A stretch of DNA of 23,396 nt from a virus. Under the pieces are notes generated by a model. It saw only the letters and a list, made by a program, of their open reading frames with translations. It had not been told where the DNA came from and did not search any database. Location of the stretch: the IMG/VR virus record IMGVR_UViG_3300025701_000911, positions 1 to 23,396 of that record. One strand, written 5' to 3'. Both the position numbers and the translations under genes were made by a program. Below, in pieces: positions 6,121-22,625 of this stretch. Every line of letters starts with the position of its first letter. Position 1 is the stretch's first letter.

Positions 6121-7677
6121 ATGTCAGACAAGATTGTTAAAAATCTAAACTTTGGTGATGATGCCAAGGTTAAGATATTTAAAGGTATAGATAAATTAAC
6201 AAAGGCTGTTAGCTCTACGTTAGGAGCTAGCGGTCAATGTGTGATCCTAGAAGATGGTAACGGTAAACCAGTTATAACCAAAGATGGTGTAACAGTTGCT
6301 GATTCAATAACACTTCTAGATCCTGTTGAAAATATGGGTGCCACGCTTTTAAAAGAAGCTGCTAGAAAAACTGTAAAAGAAGCTGGAGACGGAACAACAA
6401 CAGCTACAGTACTAGCTCACTCTATTTTAAACAAAGCTTATGAAGTATCTAAAAACAATAGCATTAGAATTATTAAAAATGGTATTGATTCAGGTGTTGA
6501 TAAAGTAATAGAATATTTAGAAAGCAAAAGTATAGAAGTTAGCGGTGATATGTTAATGGATATAGCTACTATCAGTTGTAACAACGATAGAGAATTAGGG
6601 GAGATAATAGGTGACGCTTTTAAAGCTGCCGGCGATAATGGGGTTGTAGTAATGGAACCTACAGACACTGAAGAAACAAGTTTTGAATTAGTTGATGGTG
6701 TCCAATATGAAAAAGGTATTACAAATTCTCATTTCGTTACTAGCAAAGAAAAAAGAGTTGCTGAGTTAGAAAACCCTTTAGTATTGTTAATAGAATCACC
6801 AGTTGAATCTATAAGGCAAATACAATCAGTATTAGAGTACGTAATATCTAACAACAAGTCATTGTTGATTATAGGTGATTTAGATCCTAAGATTACATCA
6901 ACTTTAGCTATGAATAAAGTTAAAGGTAATATTAAGGTAAATGTTATCGATGCTCCTACTTACGGAGTTAATAAAAAAGATATGTTATCTGATTTATCTG
7001 TTTTAACTAACGCTACAGTGATAAATGAAGACTTAGGTGATGATCTAGATATTATAAGTCCAAACTTACTAGGTCAATGTAAAAAGAGTATCACAAGTGA
7101 TTATGAAACCATATTACAAGTAGATACTGAATCTGAAGAAGTCTTAGAGCTAATAAAAGAAGTTAAGGCTCAAATGGAAGAAGCTAAAGCTCCTGGTGAT
7201 GTAATAAGATTAGAAAAGAGATTATCAAGACTATCAGGTAAAGTAGCTATAGTTAAAGTAGGTGCAAACTCTGAAATAGAGTTAAAAGAAAAGTCTGATA
7301 GAGTTGAAGACGCTATATGTGCAACTAAAGCAGCTATAAAAGAAGGTATTGTATCTGGTGGTGGAATTGCGTTATTAGACGCGTCGCTAAAAACTAAACC
7401 TAGTAACGTAGGTGAAGAGATATTGCTAGAAGCTATTTTAGCGCCATTTAAGAAGATATTATCAAACGCAGGTGTTGATGTAAAGGTTTCTGAAAAAGAA
7501 GGCGTAGGATTTGATGTTATAACCGGAGAGATGGTTAATATGATTGAGAAAGGTATTATAGATCCTTTATTGGTTACGAAAAGCGCTTTAAAAAATGCTG
7601 CATCAGTTGCTACAACTATATTATCTACAGACTGTGTAATTAATAACTTAAGAGTTGGTGATGAAAGCAGTAGGTAA
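6121..7677 (+). CDS. groEL: GroEL-type group I chaperonin (phage-encoded)
   Basis: A 518-residue Cpn60 homologue covering equatorial, intermediate and apical domains. ATP-site residues are present: TKDGVTVA (Asp55, equivalent of E. coli Asp52), AGDGTTTAT (Asp90, equivalent of Asp87), and RVEDA (Asp397, equivalent of the catalytic Asp398) in [25 protein letters not shown] form. It should therefore hydrolyse ATP and fold proteins in a ring. It is shorter than E. coli GroEL (548): a segment between the intermediate and C-terminal equatorial parts is shortened, and the Gly-Gly-Met tail is missing (it ends [14 protein letters not shown]). In the apical helix that contacts substrate and GroES, hand alignment places Gln235 where E. 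coli has Leu234, while Leu238 matches Leu237. It overlaps the downstream groES by 17 nt. It probably folds capsid or fibre proteins. Confidence 0.97.
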
Positions 7678-7924
7678 TAATATACTAATCGAAAAGATTA
7701 AAGAAGAGGCTATATCAAAAACTAAAGGTGGTTTATTACTAACAAGTAGTCAAAAGCAAGATGTTAGGTATAAGCAAGCTACAGTTGTAAACTGTGGTGA
7801 TTTAGTCAAAGGCGTTAAGAGTGGTGATTCTATTTACTATGATATGCACGCAGGTCATAGAATAGAAATTGACAAGCAGGTTTTTTACGTGATTACACTT
7901 AGAGATGTTGTTGTTGTTTTATGA
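7661..7924 (+). CDS. groES: GroES-type co-chaperonin (phage-encoded)
   Basis: An 87-residue Cpn10 homologue from ATG 7661. An in-frame TTG two codons upstream is possible, but [15 protein letters not shown] fits the family start. The mobile loop (about 17-33) carries GGLLLT in place of the E. coli GGIVLT that docks on GroEL. VKSGDSIYY (52-60) matches VKVGDIVIF, and IEIDKQVFYVITLRDVVVVL matches the last strands of the barrel. The roof loop is short (YDMHAGHR). The start lies inside the groEL 3' end (17-nt overlap), and the stop overlaps the next ATG by 4 nt (ATGA). The gene order groEL-groES is the reverse of the usual bacterial operon. It should cap the phage GroEL; whether it also works with host GroEL cannot be told. 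Confidence 0.93.
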   Translation: MKAVGNNILIEKIKEEAISKTKGGLLLTSSQKQDVRYKQATVVNCGDLVKGVKSGDSIYYDMHAGHRIEIDKQVFYVITLRDVVVVL

Positions 7925-11252: not shown

Positions 11253-11480
11253 ATGTCTAGTGTTATAAGAAAAATAAGCATAGGTACAGATTACAAAAAT
11301 GAAGCTATGCATTACTCAGTTAAACAAAACGTTTACGGTGGGCACGAGATATGTAGTATAATTCACGATGAATCTGATTCTTCTTATAACATATACATTA
11401 AGAAAAACAACGAGGTGATGCCATGGAAGAAGTTTAATTCTAACATGGCGATATCCGTTGAATATGATTTAGAGTATTAA
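11253..11480 (+). CDS. Small conserved phage protein, unknown function
   Basis: A 75-residue protein: VIRKISIGTDYKNEAMHYSV, then GGHEICSIIHDE, and a C-terminus NEVMPWKKFNSNMAISVEYDLEY. The pattern 'I-x-(I/V)-G-x-DYKN-x-AMHY ... W-K-x-FN-x-M-x-x-S-x-EY' looks like a small family carried by Bacteroidota phages, recognised from memory only. It is predicted beta-rich. It is coupled by a 1-nt TAATG overlap to the double-barrel GroES-like gene, which suggests the two products are made together. Confidence 0.6.
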   Translation: MSSVIRKISIGTDYKNEAMHYSVKQNVYGGHEICSIIHDESDSSYNIYIKKNNEVMPWKKFNSNMAISVEYDLEY

Positions 11481-12085
11481 TGAGAGGTGTTTTTGATTTT
11501 ATAGTAGAACCAATTAATGGTAGATACGATAATGAAGTTAAAATTGGTGATAAAAAACTAATAACAAATTCTAATATAGAAAACTTCAAATTCATTAGTA
11601 GAGAAGCTAAAGTAATATCTACACCAACAGCTTTTAACTCTCCTATAAAAAAAGGTGATACAGTCATAATACATCATAATGTATTTAGAAGATATTACAA
11701 TCAGAAAGGTAAAGCCGTAGATAGTAGCAAGCTGTTTAAGGACAATACGTACTTTTGTCAGCCAGATCAAATTTATCTATATAAAAGAAAAGATAAATGG
11801 AAAGCTTTAGGCAATAGATGTTTTATAATGCCTATAAAAAATACTGATCCATTCTCGCTGGATAAAGAGCAAAAATGTATTGGTATATTAAAAATCGGTA
11901 ATAGTTCATTAGAAGAGCTAGAAATAACCGAGGGAGACTTAGTTAGCTATAAACAAAACAGAGAGTTTGAATTTGTTATAGATAATATGAGAGTTTACTG
12001 TATGGAATCAAATGATATTTTATTGAAGCATGAATATAAAGGAAACGAAGAAGAATATAATCCAAGCTGGGCAAAAAGCAGTTGA
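11480..12085 (+). CDS. Putative tandem double-barrel GroES-like co-chaperonin
   Basis: A 201-residue protein whose two halves each follow the Cpn10 layout. Half 1 (about 5-101): DFIVEPI, a long loop with KIGDKKLIT (mobile-loop position), EAKVISTPT, the strand motif PIKKGDTVIIHHN (55-67), and DNTYFCQPDQIYLYK. Half 2 (about 112-185): RCFIMPI, a short loop, IGILKIGN (134-141), LEITEGDLVSYKQN (147-160), and FEFVIDNMRVYCMESNDILLKHE. The second half closely tracks the E. coli GroES segments GEVLAVGN, VKVGDIVIF and [20 protein letters not shown]. T4 gp31 and RB49 CocO are single-barrel phage co-chaperonins, so a fused pair would be a pseudo-dimer. It may work with the phage GroEL encoded 3.8 kb upstream or with host GroEL. 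The overall pattern may be an established phage family; binding is untested. Confidence 0.68.
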   Translation: MRGVFDFIVEPINGRYDNEVKIGDKKLITNSNIENFKFISREAKVISTPTAFNSPIKKGDTVIIHHNVFRRYYNQKGKAVDSSKLFKDNTYFCQPDQIYLYKRKDKWKALGNRCFIMPIKNTDPFSLDKEQKCIGILKIGNSSLEELEITEGDLVSYKQNREFEFVIDNMRVYCMESNDILLKHEYKGNEEEYNPSWAKSS

Positions 12086-12305
12086 GGAGCTTATAAAAGT
12101 AGCTAAAGAAGCTATTGTAGATTCTGATGATGACATAAGCGCAGATAGGTTAAAAAATGCTGCTGCTACTAAGAAGTTAGCTATATTCGATGCTTTTGAA
12201 ATATTAAGCCGTATAGAAGAAGAAGAAAATTTATTAAAAGAAAAACCTAAAACTACTGAAAACAAAAAAGTATTTAAAGGTTTTGCTGAAGGAAGATCTA
12301 AGTAA
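12030..12305 (+). CDS. Putative small terminase subunit or packaging accessory
   Basis: A 91-residue, mostly helical protein directly upstream of the large terminase (1-nt TAATG overlap). It has an N-terminal helix (KKNIIQAGQKAVEELIKVAKEAI), then DSDDDISADRLKNAAATKKLAIFDAFEILSRIEEEE and a basic tail (ENKKVFKGFAEGRSK). The position, the size and a helix-then-coiled-coil layout ending in a basic tail fit a small terminase subunit, but no clear helix-turn-helix is visible. The only ATG gives an unusually long 56-nt overlap with the preceding gene in another frame; the conserved-looking ISADRLKNAAA segment lies after that overlap. Confidence 0.55.
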   Translation: MNIKETKKNIIQAGQKAVEELIKVAKEAIVDSDDDISADRLKNAAATKKLAIFDAFEILSRIEEEENLLKEKPKTTENKKVFKGFAEGRSK

Positions 12306-14530
12306 TGTATAAGCAAACACTTGTAAAGACAGTAAAAGATCACATAAAGCCTTCTATATTAAAGAGAAATAATAGGTATAAAAAGTGGGAGAGAGGTTAT
12401 AACGCTGAGCATGATGTGGTTATAATAAGTGGTGACGGAACTGTAGGTGAAATCATAGAGATACAGAACTTAAAAATAGCTCTACCCAAAGAACCTAAAG
12501 AAGTACATAAATGCTCTGATGTAAAAGAAGAGCAGATTTGGCAAAAAATAGATTACCCAAAAGAATTAACTAGAATAAAAAGTGTATTTGACTGGAATAA
12601 GTATGATTCAGATTTCAAAGAAACTTGGTACGATTATATAGACGAAGAGTTTAATAGGCGTGAGCAAGGTTTTTGGTTTAAGAATAATGGTAAGTCTACT
12701 TATATAACTGGTACACATTATATGTACTTACAATGGTCAAAGATAGATGTAGGTTCAGCAGATTATAGAGAGTCGAATAGATTGTTCTTTATTTTTTGGG
12801 AAGCTTGTAAAGCTGATAACAGATGCTACGGAATGTGTTATTTAAAAAATAGACGTTCTGGTTTTAGTTTTATGTCTTCAGCTGAGTTAGTTAATCAAGC
12901 AACTATGTCATCTGACTCTAGGTTTGGTATATTGTCTAAGTCTGGATCTGATGCGAAGAAAATGTTTACAGATAAAGTTGTACCTATAAGTATAAACTAT
13001 CCTTTTTTCTTTAGACCTATACAAGATGGTATGGATCGACCTAAAACTGAATTAGCTTATAGGGTTCCAGCTTCTAAGTTAACTAGAAGAAAGTTAAATG
13101 ATGGTGTAGAAGAAATAGAACTTGACGGATTAGATACAACTATTGACTGGAAAAATACAGGTGACAACTCTTATGATGGTGAAAAATTAAAATTACTAGC
13201 TCACGACGAGAGTGGTAAATGGGAGAGACCTGATAATATATTAAACAACTGGCGAGTTACAAAAACGTGTTTAAGATTAGGTAGTAAGATTGTTGGTAAG
13301 TGTATGATGGGATCAACATCAAACGCTTTAGATAAAGGTGGTGAAAATTTTAAAAAACTATACTATGCTTCAGACGTCACGGAAAGAAACCGCAATGGAC
13401 AGACTAGCTCGGGACTATATAGTTTGTTCATACCTATGGAATGGAATTACGAAGGATTCATTGATCGTTATGGGTTACCTGTATTCGATAAACCAAAAAA
13501 GGAAGTTTTAGATTCAAACGGTGATATTATAGATCAAGGAGTTATTGATCACTGGGAAAACGAAGTTGAAGGATTGAAAAACGATCAAGACGGATTAAAC
13601 GAATACTATCGTCAATTTCCAAGAACTGAGAAACACGCGTTTAGAGATGAAGCTAAGTTATCTTTGTTTAATTTAACTAAGATATACGAGCAGATAGATT
13701 ACAATGAAGATATGAACAACAAAAAGATGGTTACTAAAGGTAGCTTTCAATGGGTTGGAGGTGTTAAAGATACTAAAGTTCAGTTTATACCAAACAAAGA
13801 TGGTAGGTTTTTAGTTAGTTGGATACCAAAACTTGAACTTCAAAACAGAGTAATACTTAAAAACGGAGTAAGATACCCTGGTAATGAGCATGTTGGAGCT
13901 TTTGGTTGTGATAGCTACGATATATCCGGGACTGTTGATAAAAGAGGATCTAATGGTTCTTTACACGGTTTAACTAAGTTTAGTATGGAAGATGCTCCTG
14001 CTAATATGTTTTTCTTAGAATATGTAGCTAGACCTCAAACCGCTGAGATATTTTTTGAAGATATATTAATGGCTTGTGTTTTTTATGGTATGCCAATACT
14101 AGCTGAGAATAACAAACCAAGGTTGTTGTATCATTTTAAAAGAAGAGGCTATAGAGGTTTTGCGATGAATAGACCAGATAAAATATATTCAAAATTATCT
14201 GTTACAGAAAAAGAAATAGGTGGTATACCAAACTCTAGCGAAGACATTAAGCAAGCTCACGCGTCAGCAATAGAATCGTATATAAATGATTTCGTAGGTG
14301 CTAATGAAACAGGTTATGGTAACATGTATTTTCAAAGAACATTAGAGGATTGGTCTAAGTTTAATATTAATAACAGAACAAAATTTGATGCAACTATAAG
14401 TTCTGGTTTAGCTATAATGGCTTGTAATAAAAATAAATACACACCAGTGTTTATACAACAAAAAAATAAACCCACTTTAAAGTTCAAAAAATACGACAAT
14501 AAAGGATATACTTCAAAAATAATACAATAA
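12305..14530 (+). CDS. terL: Terminase large subunit (packaging ATPase/nuclease)
   Basis: A 741-residue protein. The ATPase half contains KNRRSGFSF (Arg183-Ser188) in the Walker A position, deviating from GxxxxGK[ST] in the way many terminases do, followed by the helix MSSAELVNQA. A Walker B strand, KLKLLAHDESGKW, has Asp301-Glu302. Motif III-like MMGSTSNALDKGG follows. The RNase H-like nuclease half has GAFGCDSYDISGT with Asp536 as first metal ligand, and later LLYHFKRRGYRGF. An N-terminal extension of about 90 residues precedes YPKELTRIKSVFDWNKY. Full length is at the long end for the family. It translocates DNA into the prohead through the portal encoded next (zero-gap junction) and cuts it. 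Confidence 0.93.
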   Translation: MYKQTLVKTVKDHIKPSILKRNNRYKKWERGYNAEHDVVIISGDGTVGEIIEIQNLKIALPKEPKEVHKCSDVKEEQIWQKIDYPKELTRIKSVFDWNKYDSDFKETWYDYIDEEFNRREQGFWFKNNGKSTYITGTHYMYLQWSKIDVGSADYRESNRLFFIFWEACKADNRCYGMCYLKNRRSGFSFMSSAELVNQATMSSDSRFGILSKSGSDAKKMFTDKVVPISINYPFFFRPIQDGMDRPKTELAYRVPASKLTRRKLNDGVEEIELDGLDTTIDWKNTGDNSYDGEKLKLLAHDESGKWERPDNILNNWRVTKTCLRLGSKIVGKCMMGSTSNALDKGGENFKKLYYASDVTERNRNGQTSSGLYSLFIPMEWNYEGFIDRYGLPVFDKPKKEVLDSNGDIIDQGVIDHWENEVEGLKNDQDGLNEYYRQFPRTEKHAFRDEAKLSLFNLTKIYEQIDYNEDMNNKKMVTKGSFQWVGGVKDTKVQFIPNKDGRFLVSWIPKLELQNRVILKNGVRYPGNEHVGAFGCDSYDISGTVDKRGSNGSLHGLTKFSMEDAPANMFFLEYVARPQTAEIFFEDILMACVFYGMPILAENNKPRLLYHFKRRGYRGFAMNRPDKIYSKLSVTEKEIGGIPNSSEDIKQAHASAIESYINDFVGANETGYGNMYFQRTLEDWSKFNINNRTKFDATISSGLAIMACNKNKYTPVFIQQKNKPTLKFKKYDNKGYTSKIIQ

Positions 14531-20521: not shown

Positions 20522-20552
20522 ATAGCTGGTGGCAAAAATTGTTACCGGCTAT
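20522..20552 (+). terminator. Strong hairpin followed by TTTT
   Basis: ATAGCTGGTGGCAA (20522-20535) pairs with TTGTTACCGGCTAT (20539-20552) over 14 positions (three G-T wobbles) around an AAA loop, and TTT continues to 20555. It lies 19 nt after the preceding stop and 16 nt before the next ATG, so it is a good candidate intrinsic terminator or transcript-attenuating stem. It also argues against the in-frame GTG at 20529, which lies inside the stem, as a start. Confidence 0.7.
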
Positions 20553-20567
20553 TTTAAAAACAAAAAA

Positions 20568-21257
20568 ATGGCAATTAACATAGACTCAGTCTACAAGAGC
20601 GTTCTAGTTATCCTAGAGCAGGAAAAAAGAGGTGTTTTAACACCTACTGAATTTAACAAGATAGCTGCTCAGGCACAGCAAGAAATTTTTACTCAGTACT
20701 TTGACGAGTTGAATCAATTGTTAAGAATGGCACAAACTTCTTTAGCTTATGCTGATAGAATGGCTTTGTTAGATGAAAAAATATCTTTATTTAAAAGAGA
20801 GGAATCCATAGCTTTAACAAGTGGTAAAGCAACACTACCTACTCAGGTTCAAGAGCTTGGGTCTGTTGTTTACAAAAACAGAGAGGTTCAAAGAATACAA
20901 AAACACGAGCTATATACAACCAATCAATCACCACTGACTGCTCCAACAGAGTATTATCCAGTGTATATATACGAGAACAAAGTAGTGACTATATATCCAA
21001 CTACAGTTACAGGAGATATTGATGTAAATTATCTTAAGTACCCTAGCGATCCTAAGTGGGGTTTTACTATAGATCCAAATCTAGGCAACTATGTGTACAA
21101 TAGTATAAGTTCTGTTGATTTCGAGTTACACCAATCAGATCAACCATTATTGATAGACAAGGTGTTAGGTTATGCGGGTGTTATGACTAAAGATCAATTA
21201 TCTTTATCTATAGCTTCGCAAAAAGAACAACAAATTAACGCTGACGGGCAAAAATAA
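20568..21257 (+). CDS. Connector/ring-like protein, family A copy 1
   Basis: A 229-residue protein from ATG 20568 (MAINIDSVYKSVL). A GTG 13 codons upstream is in frame but lies in a hairpin, and the paralogue at 21864 begins MAINVDTVYKTVL, which fixes this start. Features: EQEKRGVLTPTEFNKIAAQAQQEIFTQYFDELNQ in the N-terminal helices, YADRMALLDEKISLF, then a beta domain (YYPVYIYENKVVTIYPTTVTGDIDVNYLKYP...WGF) and C-terminal ELHQSDQPLLIDKVLGYAGV. The helix-rich start followed by a small beta domain fits head-tail connector or tail-ring proteins of podovirus-like or crAss-like phages. Assignment rests on position after the capsid genes and on its paralogue. Confidence 0.72.
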   Translation: MAINIDSVYKSVLVILEQEKRGVLTPTEFNKIAAQAQQEIFTQYFDELNQLLRMAQTSLAYADRMALLDEKISLFKREESIALTSGKATLPTQVQELGSVVYKNREVQRIQKHELYTTNQSPLTAPTEYYPVYIYENKVVTIYPTTVTGDIDVNYLKYPSDPKWGFTIDPNLGNYVYNSISSVDFELHQSDQPLLIDKVLGYAGVMTKDQLSLSIASQKEQQINADGQK

Positions 21258-21863: not shown

Positions 21864-22625
21864 ATGGCTATAAATGTCGATACTGTATATAAGACGGTTT
21901 TATTAATATTAAACAAAGAACAGCGTGGTTATATGACACCTGATGAGTTCAATAAAGTAGCTACTCAGGTTCAATTAGATATATTTGAGCGTTATTTTGA
22001 TGATCTAAACCAGCAAATTAAAGTTGGTCAAACAAGTAGAGAGTACGCTGACAGAGTTTTAGATGTTGATGAGAAGATAGCTGTTTTCAAGGTTAGAGGT
22101 GATTGCGATTATTTAGGTGATGGGGTTTTTAAACTACCTGTTTCTTATAATGGAGTCTCTACAAATGGAACAGCTGTTTACAAGTTAGGTGTTGTAACTT
22201 ACAATGATCCTGATATAGGAGATAGTGTTGAGGTAGAAAGGTTAACCTCTAAACAGTTTTACGAAAACCAAAGATCAGATTTAACTAGATCTTCTAGAAA
22301 CTTCCCTACTTATGTTTACGAAAACGAGACTAATACAAATAGAAAAACAATAAAAGTTAGTCCTTCAACTATAACAAATAATGTAGTCGCTGATTTTATT
22401 AGAAAACCTAAAAATGTTGTTTGGGGTTACAGTGTTGGTAGCCTTGGTCAATATGTATATGATGGTGACGCTGATGTTTCTACACAGATAGAGCTACATC
22501 CATCAGAGCAAGTTAATGTTATTTTAAAAATACTTTTATATTCTGGTATAATAGTTAGAGATCCTCAAATAATTCAAGCGGCGGCTTCTGAAGTACAGAA
22601 AAACGAAATAAACCAAAAAAGCTAG
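21864..22625 (+). CDS. Connector/ring-like protein, family A copy 2
   Basis: A 253-residue paralogue of the 20568 gene: MAINVDTVYKTVLLILNKEQRG, MTPDEFNKVATQVQLDIFERYFDDLNQQ, YADRVLDVDEKIAVF, FPTYVYENE...IKVSPSTITNNVVADFIRKPKNVVWGYSV and QIELHPSEQVNVILKILLYSGI align along the whole length. It is longer in the middle (about residues 75-110: DYLGDGVFKLPVSYNGVST). It starts after AAAAAACAAGGAAAATT-ATG; the AAGGA there is a rare Shine-Dalgarno-like stretch in this window. Two differing copies suggest stacked, non-identical rings. Confidence 0.72.
   Translation: MAINVDTVYKTVLLILNKEQRGYMTPDEFNKVATQVQLDIFERYFDDLNQQIKVGQTSREYADRVLDVDEKIAVFKVRGDCDYLGDGVFKLPVSYNGVSTNGTAVYKLGVVTYNDPDIGDSVEVERLTSKQFYENQRSDLTRSSRNFPTYVYENETNTNRKTIKVSPSTITNNVVADFIRKPKNVVWGYSVGSLGQYVYDGDADVSTQIELHPSEQVNVILKILLYSGIIVRDPQIIQAAASEVQKNEINQKS

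Follow-up and report, generated by a model that had tools for sequence, protein, structure and literature searches.

A predicted tandem double-barrel co-chaperonin encoded beside the DNA-packaging genes of flavobacterial phages

Introduction

The locus described here raises the question of what a co-chaperonin with two GroES barrels in one chain would do in a phage that also encodes an ordinary GroES and a GroEL. The stretch of DNA analyzed (the window, 23,396 nucleotides) comprises positions 1 to 23,396 of IMG/VR virus record IMGVR_UViG_3300025701_000911, and its source is a marine flavobacterial phage. An earlier note, made from the sequence alone, had read the gene at 11480..12085 as two GroES barrels fused in tandem. 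The tandem co-chaperonin has been described as confined to plants, algae and derived organelles (PMC3542282). The finding of this layout as a phage gene linked to packaging allows an old question to be tested simply in bacteria, namely how chains with an even number of barrels can be accommodated in a seven-fold chaperonin; the single partner is encoded in the same genome. It also hints at how GroEL cages may adapt to large head proteins.

Results

Gene and local layout

The open reading frame of the putative tandem double-barrel co-chaperonin (11480..12085, plus strand) starts with the ATG at 11480 and stops at 12083-12085, encoding 201 amino acids, exactly as the earlier note had it; its assignment draws on a PHROG family match and on the predicted structure. 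The genes named in this paragraph and the parts of the double gene described below all lie on the plus strand. A conserved gene for a 75-aa companion protein (11253..11480) ends on the base with which the double gene begins. Downstream, a conserved gene encoding 91 amino acids (12030..12305) shares 56 bases with the end of the double gene and one base with the start of the gene for the terminase large subunit (12305..14530; phrog_6681, E 2.2e-173). The separate single-barrel GroES is encoded at 7655..7924, with its likely ATG at 7661 (Pfam Cpn10, E 2.2e-11; phrog_3188, E 7.4e-15), where it adjoins the phage groEL (6121..7677; Pfam Cpn60, E 9.1e-56; phrog_5725, E 9.2e-134). The double gene thus adjoins packaging genes and is away from the ordinary groES, as previously described, the distance being about 3.6 kb.

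The 75-aa gene was kept beside the double gene in most of one set of loci compared and in 31 of 31 genome-collection loci, and none was detected in the phi38:1, Calle_1 and phi19:3 loci. Its product gave a weak MjAgo_N-like match in Pfam (E 0.0022), which was under the cut-off. The 91-aa gene occupies a position that might be that of a small terminase, its best family match having an E of 0.061. Two further genes of the window, close to each other at 20529-21257 and 21864-22625, resemble paralogues, with VYKSVLVILEQEKRG-VLTPTEFNK and VYKTVLLILNKEQRG-YMTPDEFNK, respectively, near their starts.

The C-terminal tail of the double protein, which ends YNPSWAKSS (12038..12085 including the stop codon), overlaps the next gene and is absent from the elemo, phi38:1, Panino and Manatee Spring relatives. 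Over residues 1-183, dN was far below dS in all five pairs compared, one of which gave no estimable dS for the N half; the tail that overlaps the next gene had a low dS in four of the five. Three members of the family (loci L071, L073 and L075) are 227 aa long and carry a cysteine-rich C-terminal tail that also runs over the overlapping next gene.

Sequence evidence for the family and its two halves

The family assignment was provided by PHROG 13932 ("co-chaperonin GroES", 200 aa), which matched residues 1-183 of the double protein over profile positions 1-198 of 200 (E 2.4e-26), a sequence match far beyond chance. PHROG 13932 also touched ordinary GroES in 12 of 14 control genomes (E up to 10); the assignment therefore relies on the match being full-length. 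The single-GroES family, PHROG 3188, covered only residues 132-185 of the double protein. Pfam Cpn10 (PF00166) reached residues 143-182 only, and its 16.3 bits were below the cut-off of 21.1 bits; the relatives from phi19:3 (32.7 bits) and phi38:1 (24.1 bits) were above it, and 27 of 47 family members were matched by this model at E up to 0.1. All scores of the NCBIfam GroES models were far below their cut-offs, those for ordinary single GroES included. Matches to UPF0300 (3 of 47 members, best E 8.1e-5) and DUF693 (1 of 47, E 0.0014) did not recur and were taken as chance.

The Cpn10 motifs that had been listed for the protein were present, with PIKKGDTVIIHH at residues 55-66, ITEGDLVSY at 149-157 and IDNMRVYCMESNDILL near the end. 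The IDN-x-x-V-Y-x-M-type last strand, which had been claimed for both halves, was found in the second half only; the first half ends NTYFCQPDQIYLYK. Profile comparison indicated homology between the C half and the single GroES family of these phages (hhalign P 1.3e-7, probability 94; reversed-profile control, 0.013). The same comparison for the N half was marginal (P 7.1e-4, probability 26; reversed-profile control, 0.19), and the claim for the N half therefore relies on the predicted fold. When the N half was compared with the C half, the P of 0.012 was no better than the reversed-C control, so that an internal duplication is not evident by sequence. A single-sequence phmmer search of the PDB returned two matches (best E 0.43), with no chaperonin among them. 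A profile search reached GroES, in the second half only, with a best E of 0.0032, and the same search ranked an unrelated acyltransferase (E 0.027) above Cpn20 (E 0.059). Several residues of the N half were strongly conserved, for example HHN at 65-67 and F69-R70, for which we know of no counterpart in GroES.

Predicted fold

The whole-chain model (mean pLDDT 89.9, pTM 0.83), for which 47 relatives were aligned, had a Cpn10 barrel on either side of a joint near residue 104. The first two solved structures matched by Foldseek were 7ekq_R (E 1.2e-5) and 7ekq_Q, with 194 and 205 residues, and many Cpn10 chains came next. Over the whole chain, Foldseek superposed the model on 7ekq_R with a TM score of only 0.51-0.53 and an rmsd of 7.3 Å, values that leave the mutual angle of the two barrels unfixed by the model. 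The best solved whole-chain match in VIA-align was also the Cpn20 chain 7ekq_R (Z 9.9, 3.9 Å over 159 residues, 16% identity, model residues 1-185), followed by GroES chains on approximately residues 104-186 (Z 7 to 8.7) and by T4 gp31 at Z 6.5-7.0.

Both halves had the GroES beta-barrel fold in the predicted models. The second barrel (residues 105-186; 11792..12037) aligned with GroES 1aon_O at Z 8.0 and 2.2 Å over 79 residues. The first barrel (residues 1-104; 11480..11791) was also recovered when the N half was modeled alone (pLDDT 87.1), and this model aligned with GroES 8wuc_a at Z 8.2 and 2.8 Å over 80 residues, a Z of about 8 being a level that the alignment tool calls common. The first 16 rows of the N-half fold list were all Cpn10, gp31 or Cpn20, the first other fold appearing at Z 5.5, and Foldseek placed 25 Cpn10-type rows on top, weakly, with a best E of only 0.015. 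Enoyl reductases and alcohol dehydrogenases, which contain GroES-like domains, were in the fold lists at Z 3-5.5. Residues 3-97 of 1aon_O span model residues 1-104 and its residues 1-97 span 105-186; since these spans abut at 104/105, the fusion is almost without a spacer, and in the model the joint is flanked by strands 98-103 and 106-109.

Structure prediction and fold comparison, the check proposed for the two fused barrels, thus gave two Cpn10-like barrels, and over the full length no match to an unrelated family was obtained. On the strength of these models, the protein is almost certainly a tandem Cpn10 double barrel. Among viral predicted structures, the first match was unnamed (TM 0.88) and the best named match was the cpn10 of phi18:3 (TM 0.74). 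A viral protein of 304 residues (BFVD A0A516L046) matched the double-barrel model with a TM of 0.72 by query length and could be a larger or triple-barrel version.

Relatives and genomic neighborhood

The double co-chaperonin is a conserved and widespread phage gene tied to packaging. A tblastn search found 80 GenBank phage records. Query coverage was 80% or more in 77 of them: 68 Flavobacterium elemo records, seven Cellulophaga records, Maribacter Panino and one Manatee Spring environmental podovirus. Three Pantoea records were weak matches, and the two listed lie in a methyltransferase. The relatives are annotated as "chaperonin cpn10" or "co-chaperonin GroES", except that the phi38:1, phi40:1 and Manatee Spring submissions annotate the double protein as "hypothetical protein". 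The 200-aa gp101 of Cellulophaga phi19:3, named GroES, is a distant member (PHROG 13932, E 4.7e-103) in the same neighborhood. In IMG/VR, 91 of the 96 pattern matches to the window protein were confirmed as relatives, the alignment query gave at least 598 relatives among the 600 matches listed and the Manatee Spring query gave 540; 80 of the 91 and 80 of the 540 were retained. None of the 13 matches to the pattern of the Panino protein was confirmed.

The protein was counted as present when more than 120 profile positions were covered. By this measure, 252 of 254 partly overlapping loci carried the double protein, the other two being the GroES/GroEL stretch of the window and Tenacibaculum phage Gundel_1. 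A terminase gene was found downstream, on the same strand and within about 900 bases, at 250 of the 252 loci; at the remaining two the available sequence ends 28 and 13 bases past the gene.

A cellular origin of the family was considered and set aside. The genome collection gave 128 pattern matches, of which 31 were confirmed, all in binned assemblies; the terminase lay beside the gene in 28 of the 31 and the other three loci end just after the gene. Binning and terminase adjacency together suggest that these loci belong to phage contigs and are not cellular genes. One record called an Aenigmatarchaeota chromosome (L274) harbors a member of this phage family close to a stretch of N at about 1107-1208 and is probably a chimeric scaffold. 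Such phage contigs were also seen in other archaeal bins (L257, L262, L273 and L277).

Loops and roof

The first barrel keeps the mobile loop; in the second barrel, 184 of the 192 distinct sequences compared have a shortened loop. The first mobile-loop region (residues 12-42; 11513..11605), measured from P11 to A43, was 31-32 residues long in 190 of the 192, and it held the lowest ten-residue pLDDT blocks of the model, the last residue aside. Within it, positions 27-29 (11558..11566) were hydrophobic in 100, 95 and 87% of the 192 sequences; we take this triplet to be the counterpart of Ile-Val-Leu in GroES. The window itself has Leu-Ile-Thr, with Thr at 29. The loop of the second barrel (residues 119-134; 11834..11881), measured from P118 to G135, had 16-18 residues in 181 of 192 sequences, 7 in three and 25-27 in eight, and its ten-residue pLDDT blocks were above 90.

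Long second loops of 25-27 residues occur in phi38:1-type, phi19:3-type and L177 members and carry motifs such as SLIYIP and GSIIVPNS, which we presume to be close to GroES mobile loops. Among these lineages, the L177 record and the phi19:3-type phages gave no GroEL match, and Callevirus has a GroEL; the loci concerned include L172, L175 and L177. Retention of the second loop is possibly linked to use of the host GroEL, a relation for which the lineages are too few to test.

The roof segment before the GD motif was 12 and 14 residues long in the two halves of the double protein, by the cut used, and that of E. coli GroES is about 18 residues long. T4 gp31 also has a short roof, and the roof of the window's single GroES likewise looks short by eye.

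Single GroES and GroEL in the same phages

Cpn10 and Cpn60 proteins were looked for in whole records of two sets and in the window. In the first set of 12 records, 11 had the double protein; all 11 also had a single GroES above the cut-off and 10 had GroEL. Neither double protein, single GroES nor GroEL was found in the twelfth record, Gundel_1. Five of the 11 were fragments picked after GroEL and GroES had already been seen in them. The second set consisted of every IMG/VR contig of at least 56 kb among the retrieved relatives, except L170 and L175, which are copies of phi19:3 and phi38:1; a single GroES above the cut-off was present in 13 of 13 and GroEL in 9 of 13. With Calle_1, which occurs in both sets, counted once and the window included, there were 24 distinct records with the double protein, representing about six or seven lineages, and some may be incomplete. 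A single GroES was found in all 24 and GroEL in 19; without the five pre-seen fragments the counts were 19 of 19 and 14 of 19. The five records that gave no GroEL match were phi19:3, three near relatives and the L177 record, and the single GroES of phi19:3 and of L177 had a normal-looking loop. Shared ancestry may account for the constancy of the single GroES.

Discussion

A proposed lid of double and single barrels

We propose that the phage co-chaperonin consists of two Cpn10 barrels head to tail, in the layout of Cpn20, encoded with the DNA-packaging genes, and that each double chain would supply two neighboring barrels of a seven-barrel lid on a GroEL-type cage. The capped cage would be the phage's own GroEL where one is present and otherwise that of the host. 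The first barrel would grip GroEL via its mobile loop, and the second, short-looped in most lineages, would serve mainly as wall. Seven places cannot be filled evenly by chains of two barrels, so three doubles and one phage single GroES would make up the ring, providing seven barrels and four gripping loops. Binding to GroEL has been reported to need at least four of seven functional GroES subunits (PMC4242682), and with the second loop shortened the 3 + 1 ring would have exactly four, the reported minimum. In plants, Cpn20 is found beside a single Cpn10 in the same compartment (PMC5780408), and three Cpn20 with one Cpn10 are reported as a functional ring in Arabidopsis (PMC3542282). By analogy, the fit of barrels and loops is suggestive. 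The ring from fewer chains that the earlier note put forward is a reasonable idea, but the presence of a single GroES in every searched record that bears the double protein suggests a mixed ring instead.

The client of the capped cage would be a head protein. The position beside terminase and portal genes suggests a client in head assembly, in analogy to the pair gp31 and gp23 of T4 (PMC5780408), and the short roof in both halves suggests that the dome is more open and the chamber larger, as they are in T4 gp31. The parts of this explanation differ in strength. It is quite probable that the double protein works as a GroEL-type lid, and the explanation taken as a whole (a double Cpn10 lid subunit, a 3 + 1 ring and a head client) also appears probable, if slightly less so. 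The case for a head protein as client is evenly balanced, and the 3 + 1 ring is a tentative proposal that falls somewhat short of that. The most far-reaching version, in which Bacteroidota phages would have independently evolved a chloroplast-like asymmetric 3 + 1 lid with four gripping loops and an open roof for head proteins, capping the host GroEL in some lineages, we consider doubtful.

The strongest competitor has the double protein forming a lid alone, either from four chains, with one of the eight barrels to spare, or from three chains with six barrels, and the single GroES acting separately. Such an arrangement has precedents, since the Cpn20 proteins of plants and Plasmodium are reported as functional homo-oligomers, mostly tetramers (PMC3542282, PMC4242682), and it would suit the position of the window's single gene next to groEL and 3.6 kb from the double. 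If each chain has a single good loop, however, four chains would offer at most four loops and three chains three, at or under the reported minimum, and the single GroES accompanies the double protein in 24 of 24 records, even in the five without a GroEL match. A lid made of doubles alone is possible, but we think it unlikely.

The near-constant position just upstream of the terminase, the loop shortened in most sequences and the strongly conserved N-half residues would also be consistent with a GroES-fold protein that has taken on a new job and does not cap GroEL, as a packaging or head accessory or as a cap for a ring such as ClpP. Loss of the second loop could mean that the protein has moved away from GroEL, and a lid containing Cpn20 is described on ClpP in Chlamydomonas (PMC8889267), so the layout does not prove GroEL binding. 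The hydrophobic triplet of the first loop is nevertheless conserved, the phi19:3-type and L177 members keep a long GroES-like loop in the second barrel, and the annotations of elemo, phi38:1 and Calle_1 label the neighbors as structural but not the double gene. Taken together, these observations make a new job improbable. A two-storey lid, in which seven chains would form one ring of first barrels on GroEL and another of second barrels above it to give a taller cage, would explain the shortened loop of the second barrel but is very improbable, as the chain aligns with Cpn20 over both domains (159 residues, 3.9 Å) and the strands at the joint fit side-by-side barrels, even if the model leaves the angle between them open.

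Comparison with known systems

A lid subunit of two barrels is not a new architecture. Cpn20, with two fused Cpn10 barrels, is known from plastids (PMC5780408), and the phage family is already catalogued in PHROGs and GenBank as GroES or cpn10. The fused double barrel put forward in the earlier note is supported by the predicted models. In the open-access literature searched, no paper was found that names a tandem or double GroES in a phage, a passing mention remaining possible, and nothing was found there on the constant company of the single GroES or on the shortened second loop of the phage double.

The named members of PHROG 13932 (phi38:1 gp089, phi19:3 gp101 and elemo cpn10) belong to the same family and occupy the same place upstream of the terminase, with 22-36% identity to the window protein; the member entries examined do not mention the tandem layout. 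The window's own GroES (7655..7924) is of the Cpn10 family, and its family is homologous to the second half of the double protein; it differs in having one barrel and a GGLLL-type mobile loop and in adjoining groEL. T4 gp31 is likewise a phage lid with the GroES fold, and each half of the double protein matches 1g31_A (Z 6.5 and 6.8). In contrast to the two barrels modeled here, gp31 has one barrel per chain, and the identity is 11-12%.

The predicted layout of the phage protein is that of the Cpn20, Cpn21 and Cpn23 proteins of chloroplasts and apicoplasts, in which a chain of about 200 residues likewise carries two Cpn10 domains in head-to-tail order. The best solved match, entry 7ekq, contains Cpn20 chain R twice and is taken to be the heterotetramer of CPN11, CPN20 and CPN23 on ClpP reported from Chlamydomonas (PMC8889267). 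The phage gene differs from Cpn20 in lying in a packaging neighborhood rather than serving a plastid or apicoplast, and the identity is 16% over the aligned part. Apicomplexan Cpn20 is reported to have a mobile loop and a roof in both domains (PMC3542282), whereas the phage protein has a short second loop (184 of 192 sequences) and two short roof segments. Two defining features of Cpn20 are thus lacking, and the phage protein should not be filed as Cpn20; the phage variant probably works like it.
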